From positions 1-27,651 of IMG/VR virus record IMGVR_UViG_3300009285_002527: a stretch of DNA of 27,651 bases. One strand, written 5' to 3'. The stretch comes from a virus. Under the pieces are notes generated by a model. That model was not told where the DNA came from. It did no database searches and saw only the letters and a program-made list of their open reading frames with translations. This document shows, piece by piece, positions 1-23,013 of this stretch. The position numbers and the translations under genes were made by a program. The stretch's first letter is position 1; each line of letters opens with the position of its first letter.

Positions 1-1507
1 GCAGCAAATCCGCGCGGGCGGGAGATAGATTAACGGTCAAGTTGATGATAGCCGCCTCGCGCTGGCGCTGGTGTTGGGCTAGCAGAATTTCCTTTAAGAT
101 GGTTTCATAGTTTTGCCAGCGCAGACGTTGGTAAAAGGGGGCCAAACCTTTGGCGCTGGTATTGACCAAAACCAAGCCTTCCAACTCGGGGTGGGCATCG
201 ACATACTGTTCAACCCAGCAATTCCCACTACAGACAACCTTACCATTGCGCCTGGTGAAGAAGCTATCGTTGGGAACCTTGAAGCACCAAACCAATCCGT
301 TATAGGCCTCTATGCTAATCGTCCCACCCATGCAGTGGAACAACTCACGCTTGGTTAGGTTCAGTCGCTCCTGCCCGGGGCGATATTCAGAAATGGTTGC
401 ACTATAGCCGTGCTGGATACAAGCTGCTTGGAGTTGGTTATTCAGCAGGGGTTTAGGCTTAAGGTAAAGTGCCTTGGCAGTACTTGCACCCTGTAGGATT
501 GTTCCATCACCATAAATCAACGCATCAAGGAACACCTCAAACTGGCGGGAGGAAAGCTTATTAACCCAGGCAGGAAGCTCATCCCTGGATGGTACCAGCT
601 CTCGGATCCTGTCTGCGCTGCTCTCAAGGATATGGATTACCCCGGCAGGTTTACCCAACCCAAAATTTGTTATGCGCTCGGGGCGAACTGTATACGAATA
701 ATCAATATACTCATAACAGAGCGCCTTGATAATCGGCTCAATTTTATCAACGGCTTGGTAGATGTTCGGATAGTGGTACTTGCTGGCGTAGCATCCATCG
801 GTCAGGAAAATTCCCGCAACGAACAACAGCGCATCCGAGATTGGGTATTCACTCTGATCCTCAAAGTTTCCACAGACTGGCACCGTGATGCGTTCCTTAG
901 TGCTGGCTTCTTCAGCAGTAAAAACCTGCCAGCCGTGCTGTGTCGGCTGCCTATCCCACGAATAAAACCGATGCCCAGGTGTAACCGCAAACGACACCCG
1001 CCTGTTGTTGGCCACATAAAGCGGCCCCTCGTAGTGTCGAGTAATTACATCAGTTGGTTGTTGCCATTGGAGGAATCCGGTGGCAAAGTTCTTTGTCAAC
1101 AATTCATCGGTTGGCTCGAAGTCTTCGATTGATTTCCAGCCATCTTTGGTCAGGAACTCGGTAGCTTCATCGTGACACTCATGGTTGCCGATCATATAAT
1201 TCAATCTGCCGCCCTTGGCGACCAACCTAGCGGCAGGCTCAATCAACTCCACTCGGCAGCGCTCGGCATCTTTCATCAATCGCATACCTTCGGTCTGCCT
1301 GGGTTTATTCTCCTTCCAATGACTCACCACCCCGCAGTCCATCATGTCGCCACCGAAAGTCAGTGTATCAGGCTTGAAATCAGCCGTAAACCTGAAAGCC
1401 GCCTCGATGGCCTTCTGGTCATGAAGCGGCTTCAGATGTCCACCCTCGCGTTCGTAGCCGTGGTGGGCGTCGAAAAGGTTGACAAAGCGAGACTCAGATT
1501 TTGGCAT
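1..1507 (-). CDS. Calcineurin-like metallophosphoesterase interrupted by an intein (3' end outside window)
   Basis: One open frame of 502 codons runs from ATG at 1507 to the window edge with no stop. Residues 1-110 look like a calcineurin-like phosphoesterase: FDAHHG (D13, H15), GGDMMD (D54, D57) and GNHE (N108, H109) match the first three metal-binding motifs of that fold. An intein occupies residues 111-429. The host protein resumes at C430 with WVEQYVDAHPELEG, the type of sequence that normally follows GNHE in phage phosphoesterases. The C-terminal GH/GHxH motifs expected in the family are not seen in the roughly 70 residues left before the edge. An AAGGGGG ribosome binding site lies 10 nt before the ATG; an AAGG also abuts the ATG but is too close. 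The gene is set apart from the late operon by its own promoter. Phage enzymes of this family act on nucleic acid or phosphoester substrates; the substrate here is unknown. Confidence 0.9.
   Translation of the reverse strand, partial: MPKSESRFVNLFDAHHGYEREGGHLKPLHDQKAIEAAFRFTADFKPDTLTFGGDMMDCGVVSHWKENKPRQTEGMRLMKDAERCRVELIEPAARLVAKGGRLNYMIGNHECHDEATEFLTKDGWKSIEDFEPTDELLTKNFATGFLQWQQPTDVITRHYEGPLYVANNRRVSFAVTPGHRFYSWDRQPTQHGWQVFTAEEASTKERITVPVCGNFEDQSEYPISDALLFVAGIFLTDGCYASKYHYPNIYQAVDKIEPIIKALCYEYIDYSYTVRPERITNFGLGKPAGVIHILESSADRIRELVPSRDELPAWVNKLSSRQFEVFLDALIYGDGTILQGASTAKALYLKPKPLLNNQLQAACIQHGYSATISEYRPGQERLNLTKRELFHCMGGTISIEAYNGLVWCFKVPNDSFFTRRNGKVVCSGNCWVEQYVDAHPELEGLVLVNTSAKGLAPFYQRLRWQNYETILKEILLAQHQRQREAAIINLTVNLSPARADLL
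221..1177 (-). mobile_element. Intein with LAGLIDADG-type homing endonuclease (319 aa)
   Basis: Codons 111-429 of the phosphoesterase frame carry a full set of intein blocks. Block A starts with C111 and continues ATEFLTKDGWKSIEDF, a typical N-terminal splicing motif. Block B is SFAVTPGHRF, with the conserved T176 and H179. Two dodecapeptide-like motifs follow, FVAGIFLTDG (229-238, D237) and FLDALIYGDG (326-335, D334), matching LAGLIDADG homing endonuclease helices and acidic residues. Block F is LVWCFKVPNDSFFTRRNGK, and block G is VVCSGN followed by the +1 residue C430. The length fits a Hint splicing domain plus a compact endonuclease. The penultimate residue is Gly instead of the usual His, a variant found in a minority of inteins. 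Splicing would join GNHE directly to CWVEQY. Boundaries are precise because Cys1, Asn-last and Cys+1 are all visible. Confidence 0.95.
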
Positions 1508-1514
1508 CCTTGAA

Positions 1515-1553
1515 AATCCCCCTTCAGGGAATATAGGCTTTAACCGGGGGATT
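1515..1553 (-). promoter_or_regulatory. Hairpin spanning the promoter and hiding the RBS
   Basis: The minus-strand arms AATCCCCC (1553-1546) and GGGGGATT (1522-1515) are perfectly complementary over 8 bp with a 23-nt loop. The 3' arm overlaps the AAGGGGG ribosome binding site. Read-through RNA from the late operon would contain both arms. RNA started at the promoter inside the hairpin (about 1523) would contain only the 3' arm. The stem is followed by TTTTC, so a weak terminator role is an alternative. Confidence 0.6.
1530..1535 (-). promoter_or_regulatory. -10 box of phosphoesterase gene promoter
   Basis: On the minus strand this reads TATATT, matching TATAAT at five of six positions, with the optimal 17-bp spacing from TTGACA. 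The expected transcription start is near 1523-1524, about 16 nt before the ATG at 1507. That start falls just before the 3' arm of a hairpin that contains the ribosome binding site. Confidence 0.8.
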
Positions 1554-1558
1554 GTCAA
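1553..1558 (-). promoter_or_regulatory. -35 box of phosphoesterase gene promoter
   Basis: On the minus strand this reads TTGACA, a perfect sigma70 -35 hexamer. It lies 17 bp upstream of the TATATT at 1535-1530. It sits immediately after the stop codon (1561-1559) of the 1364-aa gene, in the only spacer between that gene and the phosphoesterase gene. Confidence 0.8.
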
Positions 1559-7274: not shown

Positions 7275-10118
7275 CTATCGCATGAGCGAATCCATCATTT
7301 GCTGTTGTAGCTGGGCGTAGCTGAGGCCCAGATTGCCGCGCCCCATATAGGCATTGTTGAGGAAGTTCATCATATCGAGGTTATAGCCTTGGTCGAATTG
7401 CCGGGTGTTTTCGCCCAGGCGCTGGGCTTCAAGGTCAAGGCCTCGGTTGCCGAGCTGGCCACTTTGGGCTAGCTGGTCGCGCTCGTTCTGCAATCCGCCG
7501 TAGCCTAGAGCCTGTTGTAATGCGAGCTGGGCAGCTGATTGAGATTGCTGACCGGCAGCTTGCTGGGCAGCTTCATTCGCCTGCCACCGCTGCAGGTCGT
7601 TCTGTTCGCGGTTAAGACCAAATTCAGCCCCAAACTGAGCGTTTTGCAGGGCCTGCTGGGTGGCTGCCTGTTGAGCCTGTTGATTAGCTTGCCAACGTTG
7701 GAGTTCAGCCTGACCCTTGTCGAGACCAAACTGCGCACCGAACTGTGAACTTTGCAGAGCTTGGGCTGCAGCGGCTTGCTGGGCTTGCTGCTGGGCCTGC
7801 CACTGAGACAGCTCGTTCTGCTGCTTGTTTAATCCAAACTCCGCACCGAATTGAGCCTGTTGTTGCTGCTGGGCCGAACCAAATTGTTTGGCCTGTTCTT
7901 GGGCCTGCCATTGCTGGAGGGCCTGTTGAGCTGCGGTTTGCTGATTCGATACGTTGGCTTGGCCATACTGCAACGCAGACTGGGCTTGCTGCTGTCGCAG
8001 GGCTTCTTGAAGTTGCTGCTGCTGCATCTGCATAGCGGATTGCTGTTGCTGGGCAGCCTGATTAGTCGCGGCGATATTGATCCCCTGAGCGCCTTGGGCC
8101 TGACGAGCAGCTTCTTGGGCCTGCTGAGCAGCTAGCTGAAGCTGCGACTGGTTCTGCTGGGCGGCTTGGTTGGTAGCTGCAATACCTGTGCGGCTAGCCG
8201 CAGCAGCTTGCTGAAGGGCCTGCTGCTGAGTATCGCGGGTCAATCCGAGCTGCTGACCTTGCAAGCCTGCAGCTTGATTGGCTTGACCAACATTGAATCT
8301 CGATTGGGCAGCAGCCTGTTGCTGTTCGGCAAGGGCCGAGCCTCGGGCTAGGGCAAGCTGATCAGCAGTTTGCTGATTGCCGATGTTGGCTTGACCAACT
8401 TGGAACGCAGACTGTGAACCGGCCTGCTTGAGGCCTTCGCCTGCCAGGGCCTGTTCTAGAGCAAACCTCGAAGCATCGGCTTGTGAGCCATAGCTTCGGT
8501 AGGCTTCTCCAGCCTGAGCCTGTTCGCCGCCCAACTGAGCGCCGTATTCGCCGATGCCGCGTTGGGAAGCTCCCGTCATGGCAGCTTCGCCAGCCCCTAG
8601 GGCGTTCAATCTATCCTGCTGGTTGGTCTGGGCAGCGGCGATGTCAACATTCCGGTTGCCTTGGAGGATCTGCGAAATGGTTGAATCACCGAGCCTGCGC
8701 TGCAAATTTTCCAAGCCCCCGCCCATCATGCCCCGGGAAGCAAACCCTTGCTGGGCTTGCTCCAGGCCTTGACGCTGCATTGAAAGGGCTTCTTCCTTTT
8801 GGCGCTCCTTGAGCTGAGCCACTACCTCAGGTGACATCGATTCAGGCGACGACAATACTCGCTGCAGCAGCGCGTTGGTGTTTGATTGAGTCTGCTGATT
8901 ACCTGCAGGCGCCTGAAACTGACCAAGCTGTTGGGCTTGGTAGGTTGGCATATTACCTGTATTAAGCTGACCCGGCTGATAGAGGGCATCTGCACCTAGG
9001 GGACCAGTTTGCGATAACTCAGGCAGTGTGCCTGCTTGATAGGTTGCTTCGTTGCCGATGCGTTCAGGGCCAGCAATCTGCCCTAGTTGGCCCGCCTGAT
9101 AGCCGAGCGATTGGTCGAGAGCTTGGAACTGGCCGGGATCACTAAACTGCCCGGCTTGGTAGCCGAGGTTGGCATTGATTTGCTGCAGCCGCTCCAGAGG
9201 CGCAATCTGGCCAGCCTGATACTGACCCGCAGGATCAAGCGGCTGGTAGTTGTAGGATTGTGATGGTCCGGCACTAGCCTGATAGGCTTGGGCAGGATTA
9301 TACTGGGCTTGAGTCTGCGGAGCAAACTGGCCTGCTTGGTAGGTCTGCGAGGGGTTGTACTGAGCCTCAGGAGATTGACCAATCTGGCCAGCCTGATACA
9401 ACTGTGGCGAGGTATATTGCGTCTGCGACTGAAGGTTTAGCTCACCGGGCTGATACTGGCGAATGTTTTGTGTAACATCAGTGAAGCTGAATGGATTAAC
9501 CCCTGCGGCAGGTGCGCCACCGCTGGAAGGCTGGCCTGTCGGAGCGCCTGCGGGAGTACCACCGCCGGGTTGGTAGGTTCCGGGCGAAGGCTGGGCACCG
9601 GGCTGCTTAGCCAAGGGATGATCCGGCGGAACCCAGCCGCCGTTGACTGCAACCCAGCCAGGGCCGGGCGGAGGGGTAGTGGGTTGAGGTTGTGCGGGTG
9701 CTGTTGTGGGCGCTGTAAAAGGCGCGGCGGTTGTTGGTGGCCCCTGTGGCTGCACAGCCATGCCAGGATTGTAGAATGGGCTTTGTGGATTGGTATGATC
9801 AACTGGCTGCATGGGTGGTGCAGAGGGTTGCGTCGTCGGTTGGGCAGGCATGATCTGGCCAGTTGAGCTAACCGGGCTAGAAGGCGAGCCCCCACCATAG
9901 CTGGCAGGCGACTGATCGGTGCCTTGGGGACCAGCAGATCGAATCCCACCTGTTAGCGCAAGCCGTCGCTTTTTGGCTTCCTCGGTTTCAACGCCTCCGC
10001 CAGTGCTAGCCTGGGGTGCGATACTCCCGAGCGATTGCGGCCCGCTCAGCCCCGGCGCAGGAGTCTTAGGCGTGCTGGCTGGAGTCGTTGGGCTGCTGAT
10101 GCCGTAAGTGTTTGCCAT
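7275..10118 (-). CDS. Repeat-rich Gln/Ala/Pro virion protein (947 aa)
   Basis: Three zones are visible. Residues 1-210 are low-complexity Pro/Gly/Ser/Thr-rich linker with no predicted fold. Residues 221-396 hold about ten copies of a Tyr-Gln-Ala-Gly-Gln motif (YQAGQ and close variants) spaced 12-25 residues apart. Residues 410-947 are extremely Gln/Ala-rich and helical. They include three 36-residue repeats (755-862) built on QFGAxFGLNxxQxxLxxWQA, and scattered VGQANxxNQQTA and IAATNQAAQ motifs. Cysteine is absent. The start has TAGGAGATCCG before ATG. Lying between two glycine-zipper proteins, it is probably an internal or tail-associated virion component. The name of the family is unknown to me, and a function in DNA ejection is inference only. 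Confidence 0.85.
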   Translation of the reverse strand: MANTYGISSPTTPASTPKTPAPGLSGPQSLGSIAPQASTGGGVETEEAKKRRLALTGGIRSAGPQGTDQSPASYGGGSPSSPVSSTGQIMPAQPTTQPSAPPMQPVDHTNPQSPFYNPGMAVQPQGPPTTAAPFTAPTTAPAQPQPTTPPPGPGWVAVNGGWVPPDHPLAKQPGAQPSPGTYQPGGGTPAGAPTGQPSSGGAPAAGVNPFSFTDVTQNIRQYQPGELNLQSQTQYTSPQLYQAGQIGQSPEAQYNPSQTYQAGQFAPQTQAQYNPAQAYQASAGPSQSYNYQPLDPAGQYQAGQIAPLERLQQINANLGYQAGQFSDPGQFQALDQSLGYQAGQLGQIAGPERIGNEATYQAGTLPELSQTGPLGADALYQPGQLNTGNMPTYQAQQLGQFQAPAGNQQTQSNTNALLQRVLSSPESMSPEVVAQLKERQKEEALSMQRQGLEQAQQGFASRGMMGGGLENLQRRLGDSTISQILQGNRNVDIAAAQTNQQDRLNALGAGEAAMTGASQRGIGEYGAQLGGEQAQAGEAYRSYGSQADASRFALEQALAGEGLKQAGSQSAFQVGQANIGNQQTADQLALARGSALAEQQQAAAQSRFNVGQANQAAGLQGQQLGLTRDTQQQALQQAAAASRTGIAATNQAAQQNQSQLQLAAQQAQEAARQAQGAQGINIAATNQAAQQQQSAMQMQQQQLQEALRQQQAQSALQYGQANVSNQQTAAQQALQQWQAQEQAKQFGSAQQQQQAQFGAEFGLNKQQNELSQWQAQQQAQQAAAAQALQSSQFGAQFGLDKGQAELQRWQANQQAQQAATQQALQNAQFGAEFGLNREQNDLQRWQANEAAQQAAGQQSQSAAQLALQQALGYGGLQNERDQLAQSGQLGNRGLDLEAQRLGENTRQFDQGYNLDMMNFLNNAYMGRGNLGLSYAQLQQQMMDSLMR
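7533..7856 (-). repeat. Three tandem 108-nt (36-residue) repeats
   Basis: Copies begin at residues 755, 791 and 827 with AQFGAEFGLN, SQFGAQFGLD and AQFGAEFGLN. Each then has a charged/Gln segment, a WQA motif and an Ala/Gln-rich helix. The exact 36-residue period in all three copies indicates tandem duplication inside the gene. Confidence 0.85.
8931..9455 (-). repeat. YQAGQ motif array in the 947-aa protein
   Basis: Residues 222-396 contain about ten degenerate copies: YQPGE, YQAGQ (six copies), YQAS, YQAGT, YQPGQ and YQAQQ. Spacing varies from 12 to 25 residues, so this is a spaced motif array and not a strict tandem repeat. Linkers between copies are Gln/Pro/Asn-rich (QYNPSQT, QYNPAQA). 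Confidence 0.8.
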
Positions 10119-12216: not shown

Positions 12217-12720
12217 CTAGGGGATGAAAAATCCGCAGGCTCGGTTGATCCAACCGCTGGCAAAGGCGGCTTGGGATTTGCTGCGTGAGATTAGCCTGCC
12301 AATCATTTGCAGCCTGGCGACAACCAATCGGTTGTTAATCTCTCGGGGTTCGGCGGCTGCAAGGGCTGCGATGGTCAGAGGACCGATGATTCCATCAGCC
12401 TGAATGCCGAGGATGGTTTGCAGCTTCGATATCGCTAGCGAAGGTCCACTGTTAACACCGTAGTCGATTAGCTGAGCCTTTAGGTATTCAGGGGCTGTCA
12501 GCTTGTCGAATCCTGGTGCTTCAACATAAAGGGCTTGGTATATCTTGCGTGCCCGATCAATTGTAAGCGATTGGACATCTTCTATCGTTGCAAGGTGTCC
12601 AAGCCACCAGCTCAAAGTTGCCCGGGTGATGCCAAAGTTAGTTGGCCCGCCCCAGTCGTCGGGATGGTCGGTATACCCACCTTCGGCTTTCAGGATGTCA
12701 GTGATGAAATCCCTGGGCAT
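12217..12720 (-). CDS. Endolysin, GH108 family with PG-binding C-terminus (167 aa)
   Basis: The N-terminus KAEGGYTDHPDDWGGPTNFG is the hallmark of glycoside hydrolase family 108, with E13 of EGGY as the catalytic acid. These enzymes cleave the MurNAc-GlcNAc bond of peptidoglycan. The C-terminal half (about 95-165) contains IDYGVNSGPSLAISKLQ and ILGIQADGIIGPLTIAAL, matching the PG_binding_3 module normally fused to GH108. ATG at 12720 is chosen over an upstream in-frame start because GGAGG lies 5 nt before it and the holin-like gene stops 1 nt upstream. There is no signal peptide or SAR segment, so export depends on a holin. Confidence 0.93.
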   Translation of the reverse strand: MPRDFITDILKAEGGYTDHPDDWGGPTNFGITRATLSWWLGHLATIEDVQSLTIDRARKIYQALYVEAPGFDKLTAPEYLKAQLIDYGVNSGPSLAISKLQTILGIQADGIIGPLTIAALAAAEPREINNRLVVARLQMIGRLISRSKSQAAFASGWINRACGFFIP

Positions 12721-12721
12721 A

Positions 12722-12946
12722 TTAACCTCCAAGGATACGCTGAACAATAAGCCCGATTGCCGCCGTGCCAATAATACCAGCCAAACCTACGGACCACTTC
12801 AGGATTCCAACTGCAATTTCTAGTGTTCTAACCCGGCCATTTATTGACTTGAAGCCTTCCTCTACCCGACTATCGATTTTATTCACAGTTAACTCCACAC
12901 GGGCTAGAATCTCGCTCGTTGTTTGGCATGATTGACATTCGGCCAT
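12722..12946 (-). CDS. Holin-like protein with one C-terminal TM segment (74 aa)
   Basis: ATG at 12946 has a perfect AGGAGGT 7 nt upstream, which rejects the longer in-frame start overlapping the fibre gene. Residues 10-45 form a charged amphipathic helix (ILARVELTVNKIDSRVEEGF). A single hydrophobic segment follows at about 48-69 (ILKWSVGLAGIIGTAAIGLI), then a short basic tail. This design resembles the XhlA / hemolysin-type one-TM holins. Two Cys residues (C4, C7) form CQSC near the N-terminus. Its stop lies 1 nt before the endolysin start, the classic holin-endolysin order. Confidence 0.8.
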   Translation of the reverse strand: MAECQSCQTTSEILARVELTVNKIDSRVEEGFKSINGRVRTLEIAVGILKWSVGLAGIIGTAAIGLIVQRILGG

Positions 12947-21780: not shown

Positions 21781-23013
21781 CTAATCGTTTAGATCTTCGA
21801 GTTTTCCGTTCGCGTTCCGTGCGGTAACTCCTAAGTTCATGTAGCTGAACAGCACAGCCTCGTAAGCATCGTAGCCACTCACCCGGCTGAGAGTCTGACC
21901 GTCTTTATCCATCCAGTCGAAGTCACTGGTCCGATAGAGCTTCAGCGTATCGGGAACGATGTAATAGATCGATCCCCGGCGGCACTGCGGATCAGGCACC
22001 AAAGGCGTACCATTAAACTCCACAGCCTTGAACCCGCCGTCGAGAGTCATCGTGTTGACGAATCTCTTGTCGGCCACTAGGAGGCTGACATACTTGTCGC
22101 GGATCGGATAGTTGCAGAGCATGAACTCCACATCCTTTTCCGAGTAGTCGCTGTTCATCGCGATGGACGACAGCGGATCCTGCATCAGGGCCAGCGTTAG
22201 GTCACGCTTCGTGCCCGAGTTGCCAAAGATCTGAGCCTTCCACCAAGGATGCGATGCCACGGCTAGGCCTTCCAGCCCACCCGATAGCAGCGGCGGGTTA
22301 CCATCGTCGATAATCCCCTCAATCCCCATCATCTGGTAGCCGAGGGTGTTGGCCAGGACCAAGTAGTCGGTATCGGCCGAACCGCTAACTGTCCCGGTGA
22401 AGGTCATCGCGTAGTTCGTCGCTGCCTTGGCGCCGAGCGTGCAGACAATATCGTTGCCTAGGACCGTCGCGTTGTCGGTTGCGTCGATGAGGTCGCAGGT
22501 GATCGTGCCTGCTGAGGGCAGATGCACGAAGGCATTCCCCTGACCGTCGTCGATGGTAACGCCCGAGGCGTCATCAGCGCCCGTCCAGAAGGCCAACGCA
22601 TCGGTGCCATCGCCTAGGAGCTGGCGGTTGACCGCACGCTGCTGGTCGCGAGTCAGGCCACGAATCTCGCCTTCGATAGCCGTAACGAAGGCGCCTGCGT
22701 TGTCGCGGGCCGCACGAATAGTCGGACCCGAAACCTGAATCCTGCCGTACTGATAAGCGTTCGGTACGACCGCAACCTCGTAGCCTTGCTGCCCAGCGGT
22801 TGGCAGCGCCCCACCATCAGCCCGGCCCGACCCGGCGCTGACGTTGCGCGAAGTGTGCAGCGGAATGGTGAACTGTTTACCGCTGACATCAACATACCCA
22901 CCCTCGCGCTGAATGCGCTTCAGGAGAATCGTGCTGTTGTTGAGCTGATCGCGAATCGGCCCCAGGTATCGAACCTTGAGGATATTCGCAGCTGCTGAAA
23001 GATCGAAAGCCAT
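21781..23013 (-). CDS. Major capsid protein, HK97-like fold (410 aa)
   Basis: The N-terminus (LKVRYLGPIRDQLNNSTILL) and the pattern of helix, long beta region and helical C-terminal part with a late KLYRTSDFDWMDKDG match a phage major capsid protein. Residues about 145-245 form a beta-rich insertion (GVTIDDGQGN to LVLANTLGYQ) like the insertion domains of P22-type coats. The C-terminus YEAVLFSYMNLGVTARNANG is typical. AAAGGAG lies 8-10 nt before the ATG. It directly follows the scaffold gene, the normal capsid assembly order. Which capsid family it belongs to needs a structural comparison. Confidence 0.9.
   Translation of the reverse strand: MAFDLSAAANILKVRYLGPIRDQLNNSTILLKRIQREGGYVDVSGKQFTIPLHTSRNVSAGSGRADGGALPTAGQQGYEVAVVPNAYQYGRIQVSGPTIRAARDNAGAFVTAIEGEIRGLTRDQQRAVNRQLLGDGTDALAFWTGADDASGVTIDDGQGNAFVHLPSAGTITCDLIDATDNATVLGNDIVCTLGAKAATNYAMTFTGTVSGSADTDYLVLANTLGYQMMGIEGIIDDGNPPLLSGGLEGLAVASHPWWKAQIFGNSGTKRDLTLALMQDPLSSIAMNSDYSEKDVEFMLCNYPIRDKYVSLLVADKRFVNTMTLDGGFKAVEFNGTPLVPDPQCRRGSIYYIVPDTLKLYRTSDFDWMDKDGQTLSRVSGYDAYEAVLFSYMNLGVTARNANGKLEDLND

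Follow-up and report, generated by a model that had tools for sequence, protein, structure and literature searches.

Inteins inserted in phage metallophosphoesterases have been described in cluster A1 mycobacteriophages, in which 37 are listed in RDF/metallophosphoesterases (PMC5050341). The RDF intein is filed under class 1, and the intein of Bethlehem gp51, which carries glycine at the penultimate position, splices fully but is impaired when that glycine is changed to histidine (PMC5050341). We found a second comparable system in the "serine/threonine protein phosphatase" of Rheinheimera Barba phages (e.g., QNO01741.1), in which a 315-residue insert lies at GNH and ends in GN/C. Other phage inteins, found in nucleotidyltransferase, portal, terminase, ribonucleotide reductase, and Nampt proteins, have the same architecture as the intein reported here, and many of them also have a penultimate glycine, but they occupy different host proteins, sites, and tree branches.

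The stretch of DNA analyzed here (the window) is the whole of virus record IMGVR_UViG_3300009285_002527, 27,651 bases long. A minus-strand frame starts with ATG at position 1507 and stays open to base 2 without a stop or a frameshift; because the window is the complete record, the gene is truncated where the contig stops (Table 1). Judged by its sequence, this frame encodes a calcineurin-like metallophosphoesterase (MPE) interrupted by an intein, which lies between GNHE110 and C430 of the precursor. The first-pass annotation had read it as a phage metallophosphoesterase with an intein and homing endonuclease in one frame that has no stop inside the window; homology, predicted fold, and motifs all agree with that reading, and the boundaries and motif placements that it gave were exact to the residue, with a translation running from C1 to N319.

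Table 1. Features of the interrupted phosphoesterase locus (window coordinates)
Feature	Position	Strand	Remarks
Interrupted metallophosphoesterase gene (precursor frame)	2..1507	-	502+ residues; 3' end lost at contig end
N-extein, residues 1-110	1178..1507	-	Aligned with phage phosphoesterases; phrog_221
Intein, 319 residues, C1 to N319 (precursor 111-429)	221..1177	-	Homology, AlphaFold model, PDB matches
Splicing block A, CHDEATEFLTKDGW, intein residues 1-14, nucleophile Cys1	1136..1177	-	
Splicing block B, VTPGHRFYSW (VTPGH = 65-69; T66, H69)	956..985	-	
LAGLIDADG motif 1, FVAGIFLTDGCY, acidic residue D127	788..823	-	
LAGLIDADG motif 2, FLDALIYGDGTI, acidic residue D224	497..532	-	
Splicing block F, VWCFKVPNDSFF, Cys298 at Asp/Cys (F4) position	257..292	-	
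Splicing block G, RRNGKVVCSGN (junction CSGN/C)	221..253	-	Penultimate Gly318 replaces His; terminal Asn319
C-extein, first residue Cys430 (+1 nucleophile), incomplete	2..220	-	CWVEQYVDAHPELEG aligns with phosphoesterases
Sigma-70-like promoter TTGACA-17-TATATT (tentative)	1530..1558	-	Consensus match only, 11/12

The metallophosphoesterase motifs D-x-H, GDxxD, and GNH(D/E) are all present in the N-extein, as DAH (13-15), GDMMD (53-57), and GNHE (107-110), and the PHROG metallo-phosphoesterase family phrog_221 matches it with an E value of 2.2e-11. The profile searches proposed in the first-pass annotation would have largely missed the element: Pfam Metallophos scored 14.3 bits on the protein, under the cutoff of 21.5, and the Pfam Hint and LAGLIDADG models had no match to the intein at E ≤ 1. 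Pfam and NCBIfam searches of the precursor protein gave no useful match. Phosphoesterase hidden Markov models can thus overlook interrupted enzymes of this kind, as Pfam Metallophos did here.

The predicted promoter sits in the short gap that precedes the phosphoesterase start codon. Its near-perfect predicted sigma-70 sequence suggests that the phosphoesterase may be expressed separately from the upstream virion genes. Elsewhere in the window, all on the minus strand, we detected a major capsid protein (21781-23013) distantly related (27-29%) to those of Arthrobacter phage Jasmine and Microbacterium phage Shocker, a 947-residue Gln/Ala-rich protein with YQAGQ-like repeat units in the virion gene region (7275-10118), and a glycosyl hydrolase 108 type endolysin with a peptidoglycan-binding domain (12217-12771; Pfam 1.8e-21 and 4.3e-13). 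Searches of IMG/VR with the precursor protein, the spliced extein, or a 1364-residue neighbor found no close relatives.

The full protein matched mycobacteriophage genes for phosphoesterase plus intein (Ringer and others; tblastn) at E = 5e-40, with 29% identity over 83% of the query. The intein alone matched mycobacteriophage phosphoesterase genes at an E value of about 3e-28 with 97% coverage, a sequence match that is far above chance. An AlphaFold model of the intein, built from an alignment of 41 related inteins, reached a pLDDT of 93 and superposes over its full length on intein structures with Hint and LAGLIDADG domains, which identifies the Hint fold. Its best Foldseek matches were the homing-endonuclease inteins TliVMA, PhoVMA, PI-SceI, and PI-PfuI, and its nuclease fold also matches I-DmoI and PI-SceI. 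VIA-align of intein residues 1-319 gave a Z score of 24.6 against 7qsu (rmsd 4.2; 299 residues aligned) and 22.7 against 1dq3.

In the same 41-intein alignment, C1, T10, and G13 of block A and H69 of block B are invariant; the block B T-x-x-H signature is present as T66-P-G-H69. The two LAGLIDADG cores are FVAGIFLTDG (intein residues 119-128) and FLDALIYGDG (216-225). In block F, with the core VWCFKVPN (296-303), the cysteine at the F4 position is nearly invariant among the aligned inteins. At the C-terminal junction Asn319 is followed by Cys at +1, and the penultimate residue is Gly, not His, an accepted variation that works in the RDF intein.

Alignment with intein-free phosphoesterases, those of Mycobacterium phages Airmid and Sheen, Rhodococcus phage RER2, and Verrucomicrobia phage P8625, covers the N-extein and about 17 residues at the start of the C-extein. 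The gap falls exactly after GNHE/GNHD, between E110 and C430, where the earlier annotation had expected it. The search found no intein-free allele nearer than about 28% identity. Many of these intein-free phosphoesterases have Glu immediately after GNH(D/E), a residue that could not act as a nucleophile at +1, and the intein-free Thermobifida phage P318 has GNHDSRAREY, much like the spliced Ringer product GNHDSRARDY. We therefore suggest that either invasion changes the +1 codon or the inteins enter alleles in which +1 is already Ser, Cys, or Thr.

The window intein and the mycobacteriophage RDF intein share a host superfamily, a site directly after GNH(D/E), class 1 blocks, a penultimate Gly, a LAGLIDADG domain, similar sizes (317 or 319 residues), and a lineage in the tree described below. 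They differ in sequence (about 29-33% intein identity) and at +1, which is Cys in the window and Ser in the mycobacteriophage RDF/MPE, and their host phosphoesterases belong to different sequence groups in unrelated phages. The first-pass annotation had suggested that an intein in such a phosphoesterase may be undescribed; the 37 mycobacteriophage inteins listed in PMC5050341 rule this out, and the alignment made here shows the same insertion site. The Barba insert lies directly after GNH (GNH/C), one residue earlier than that of the window, and belongs to a second lineage. This intein is unannotated (L124:842-2311), and the proteins of cultured Barba phages carry no annotation beyond phosphatase, phosphoesterase, or hypothetical.

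We conclude that the locus very probably encodes an MPE precursor in which a class 1 homing intein, placed immediately behind GNHE, would splice and spread by homing among phosphoesterases. Anatomy, predicted fold, exact site, homology, site recurrence, and the two lineages were computed; from them we infer splicing, which has been demonstrated for the Bethlehem RDF intein, as well as nuclease activity and homing. With Cys1, TPGH, Asn319, and Cys at +1, splicing most likely follows the class 1 route. After translation, Cys1 would form the N-terminal thioester, the chain would transfer to Cys430, and Asn319 would cyclize with Gly in place of His as its penultimate neighbor, so that GNHE is ligated to CWVEQ and the enzyme is restored; the metal site of the phosphoesterase would be unable to assemble before splicing. 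The LAGLIDADG domain would cleave alleles lacking the intein within the conserved codons GGN-AAY-CAY-GAN, and the intein would be copied into the cut allele during mixed infection. Related inteins may thereby have invaded many unrelated phage phosphoesterases because the enzymes of this superfamily share the GNH(D/E) motif.

To see how often this site is occupied, we scanned with a DNA pattern for GNH(D/E)-C-x4-T-E-x-L-T, a conserved-extein profile being too divergent for use in scanning. The pattern matched 34 IMG/VR contigs, every one of which had an intein-like start at the motif, and two bacterial contigs, one of them genuine: Parasutterella muris carries the same element as an IMG/VR record (L102), probably as a prophage. 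The 227-residue insert common to the P. muris contig and IMG/VR (L102 and L123) apparently has no nuclease domain. Ends could be bounded for 33 inteins, including that of the window, and all 33 had a penultimate Gly in a junction search that accepted Gly or His at that position. The residue at -1 was Glu or Asp, and that at +1 was Cys (20 inteins), Thr (7), or Ser (6). Such breadth of site occupancy was not reported in the literature searched, which covered a minority of subscription journals.

A tree of 67 inteins, which included inteins of ribonucleotide reductase, Nampt, primase, ThyX, nucleotidyltransferase, and portal proteins and one outgroup row (Corynebacterium phage Darwin) with a wrong start (246 residues), resolved the MPE-site inteins into two lineages. 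The first comprises 18 MPE-site inteins, among them those of the window and the mycobacteriophage RDF (support 98/95), and the second comprises 12, including the Barba intein (100/100). The tree required 2 label changes, versus about 22 in shuffles. A single origin had appeared in smaller trees, in which the MPE-site inteins formed one clade (77/98), but this clade was split by the ribonucleotide reductase, Nampt, primase, and ThyX outgroups.

The exteins fall into at least eight phosphoesterase sequence groups (blastp), three of which contain both intein lineages at the same site: L090 and L114 versus L092, L096, and the window; L099 versus seven others, with 38-43% extein identity; and L103 versus L109 and L112. 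The inteins of the window and L089 are 34% identical (E = 2e-49), while no significant similarity links their exteins (E = 0.16). The presence of both lineages in three extein groups points to repeated horizontal invasion of the GNH(D/E) codons, and repeated arrival at one conserved active-site codon run is the simplest reading of these sequences.

An alternative hypothesis is that the intein can still splice while its endonuclease is dead, the element being inherited vertically with the phage. Three members of the bounded set (L119, L102, and L123) have small inserts at the same site, 159 or 227 residues long, which show that the nuclease domain is sometimes lost. In the window, however, both LAGLIDADG motifs are intact with their aspartates, so the nuclease is probably active; its fold is predicted at high confidence, and the two lineages are scattered across the same extein groups. 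We therefore regard vertical inheritance with a dead nuclease as unlikely.

We likewise consider it very unlikely that the frame arose as a chimera during assembly or represents a dead gene at the end of the contig. This idea draws on the C-extein, which has no recognizable similarity to other proteins after CWVEQYVDAHPELEG (beyond about residue 447), a search in phages having returned nothing significant. The last ~56 C-extein residues (2-172, minus strand) had no phage match, though motif H is expected there, and the extein parts of the full-precursor AlphaFold model have low confidence. The 73 C-extein residues that precede the contig end show neither phosphoesterase motif IV (H) nor motif V (GHxH), although both occur in related exteins (L092, L090, and L096). 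Divergence, an extra insert, or an assembly error could each account for the unmatched residues. Against a chimera or a dead gene, the frame is free of stops and frameshifts, the two splice junctions are exact, and in-frame codon bias persists right up to the end of the contig (0.198 per codon, the best of six frames). Class 3-like splicing starting at Cys298 instead of Cys1 is highly improbable, for despite the near-invariant Cys at F4 and the missing penultimate His, Cys1 is invariant in the 41 aligned inteins, the positions of the class 3 Trp-Cys-Thr triplet hold Phe71 (block B12), Cys298, and Ser317 (block G5), and the RDF intein was classed as class 1 (PMC5050341).

The reading that we favor, a class 1 homing intein at the GNHE site, adds little as a single case. 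What is new beyond the literature found is the breadth of the phenomenon: the same site is used repeatedly by inteins in very different phages. We propose that the GNH(D/E) codons are probably a superfamily-wide hot spot for phage inteins, in which at least two penultimate-Gly lineages jump between enzymes alignable only at their metal motifs, with a nuclease that reads active-site codons. The wider set makes it testable whether homing endonucleases cross between unrelated genes by way of a short catalytic codon run conserved across a superfamily, and the large natural family of penultimate-Gly inteins offers material for studying Asn cyclization without His.
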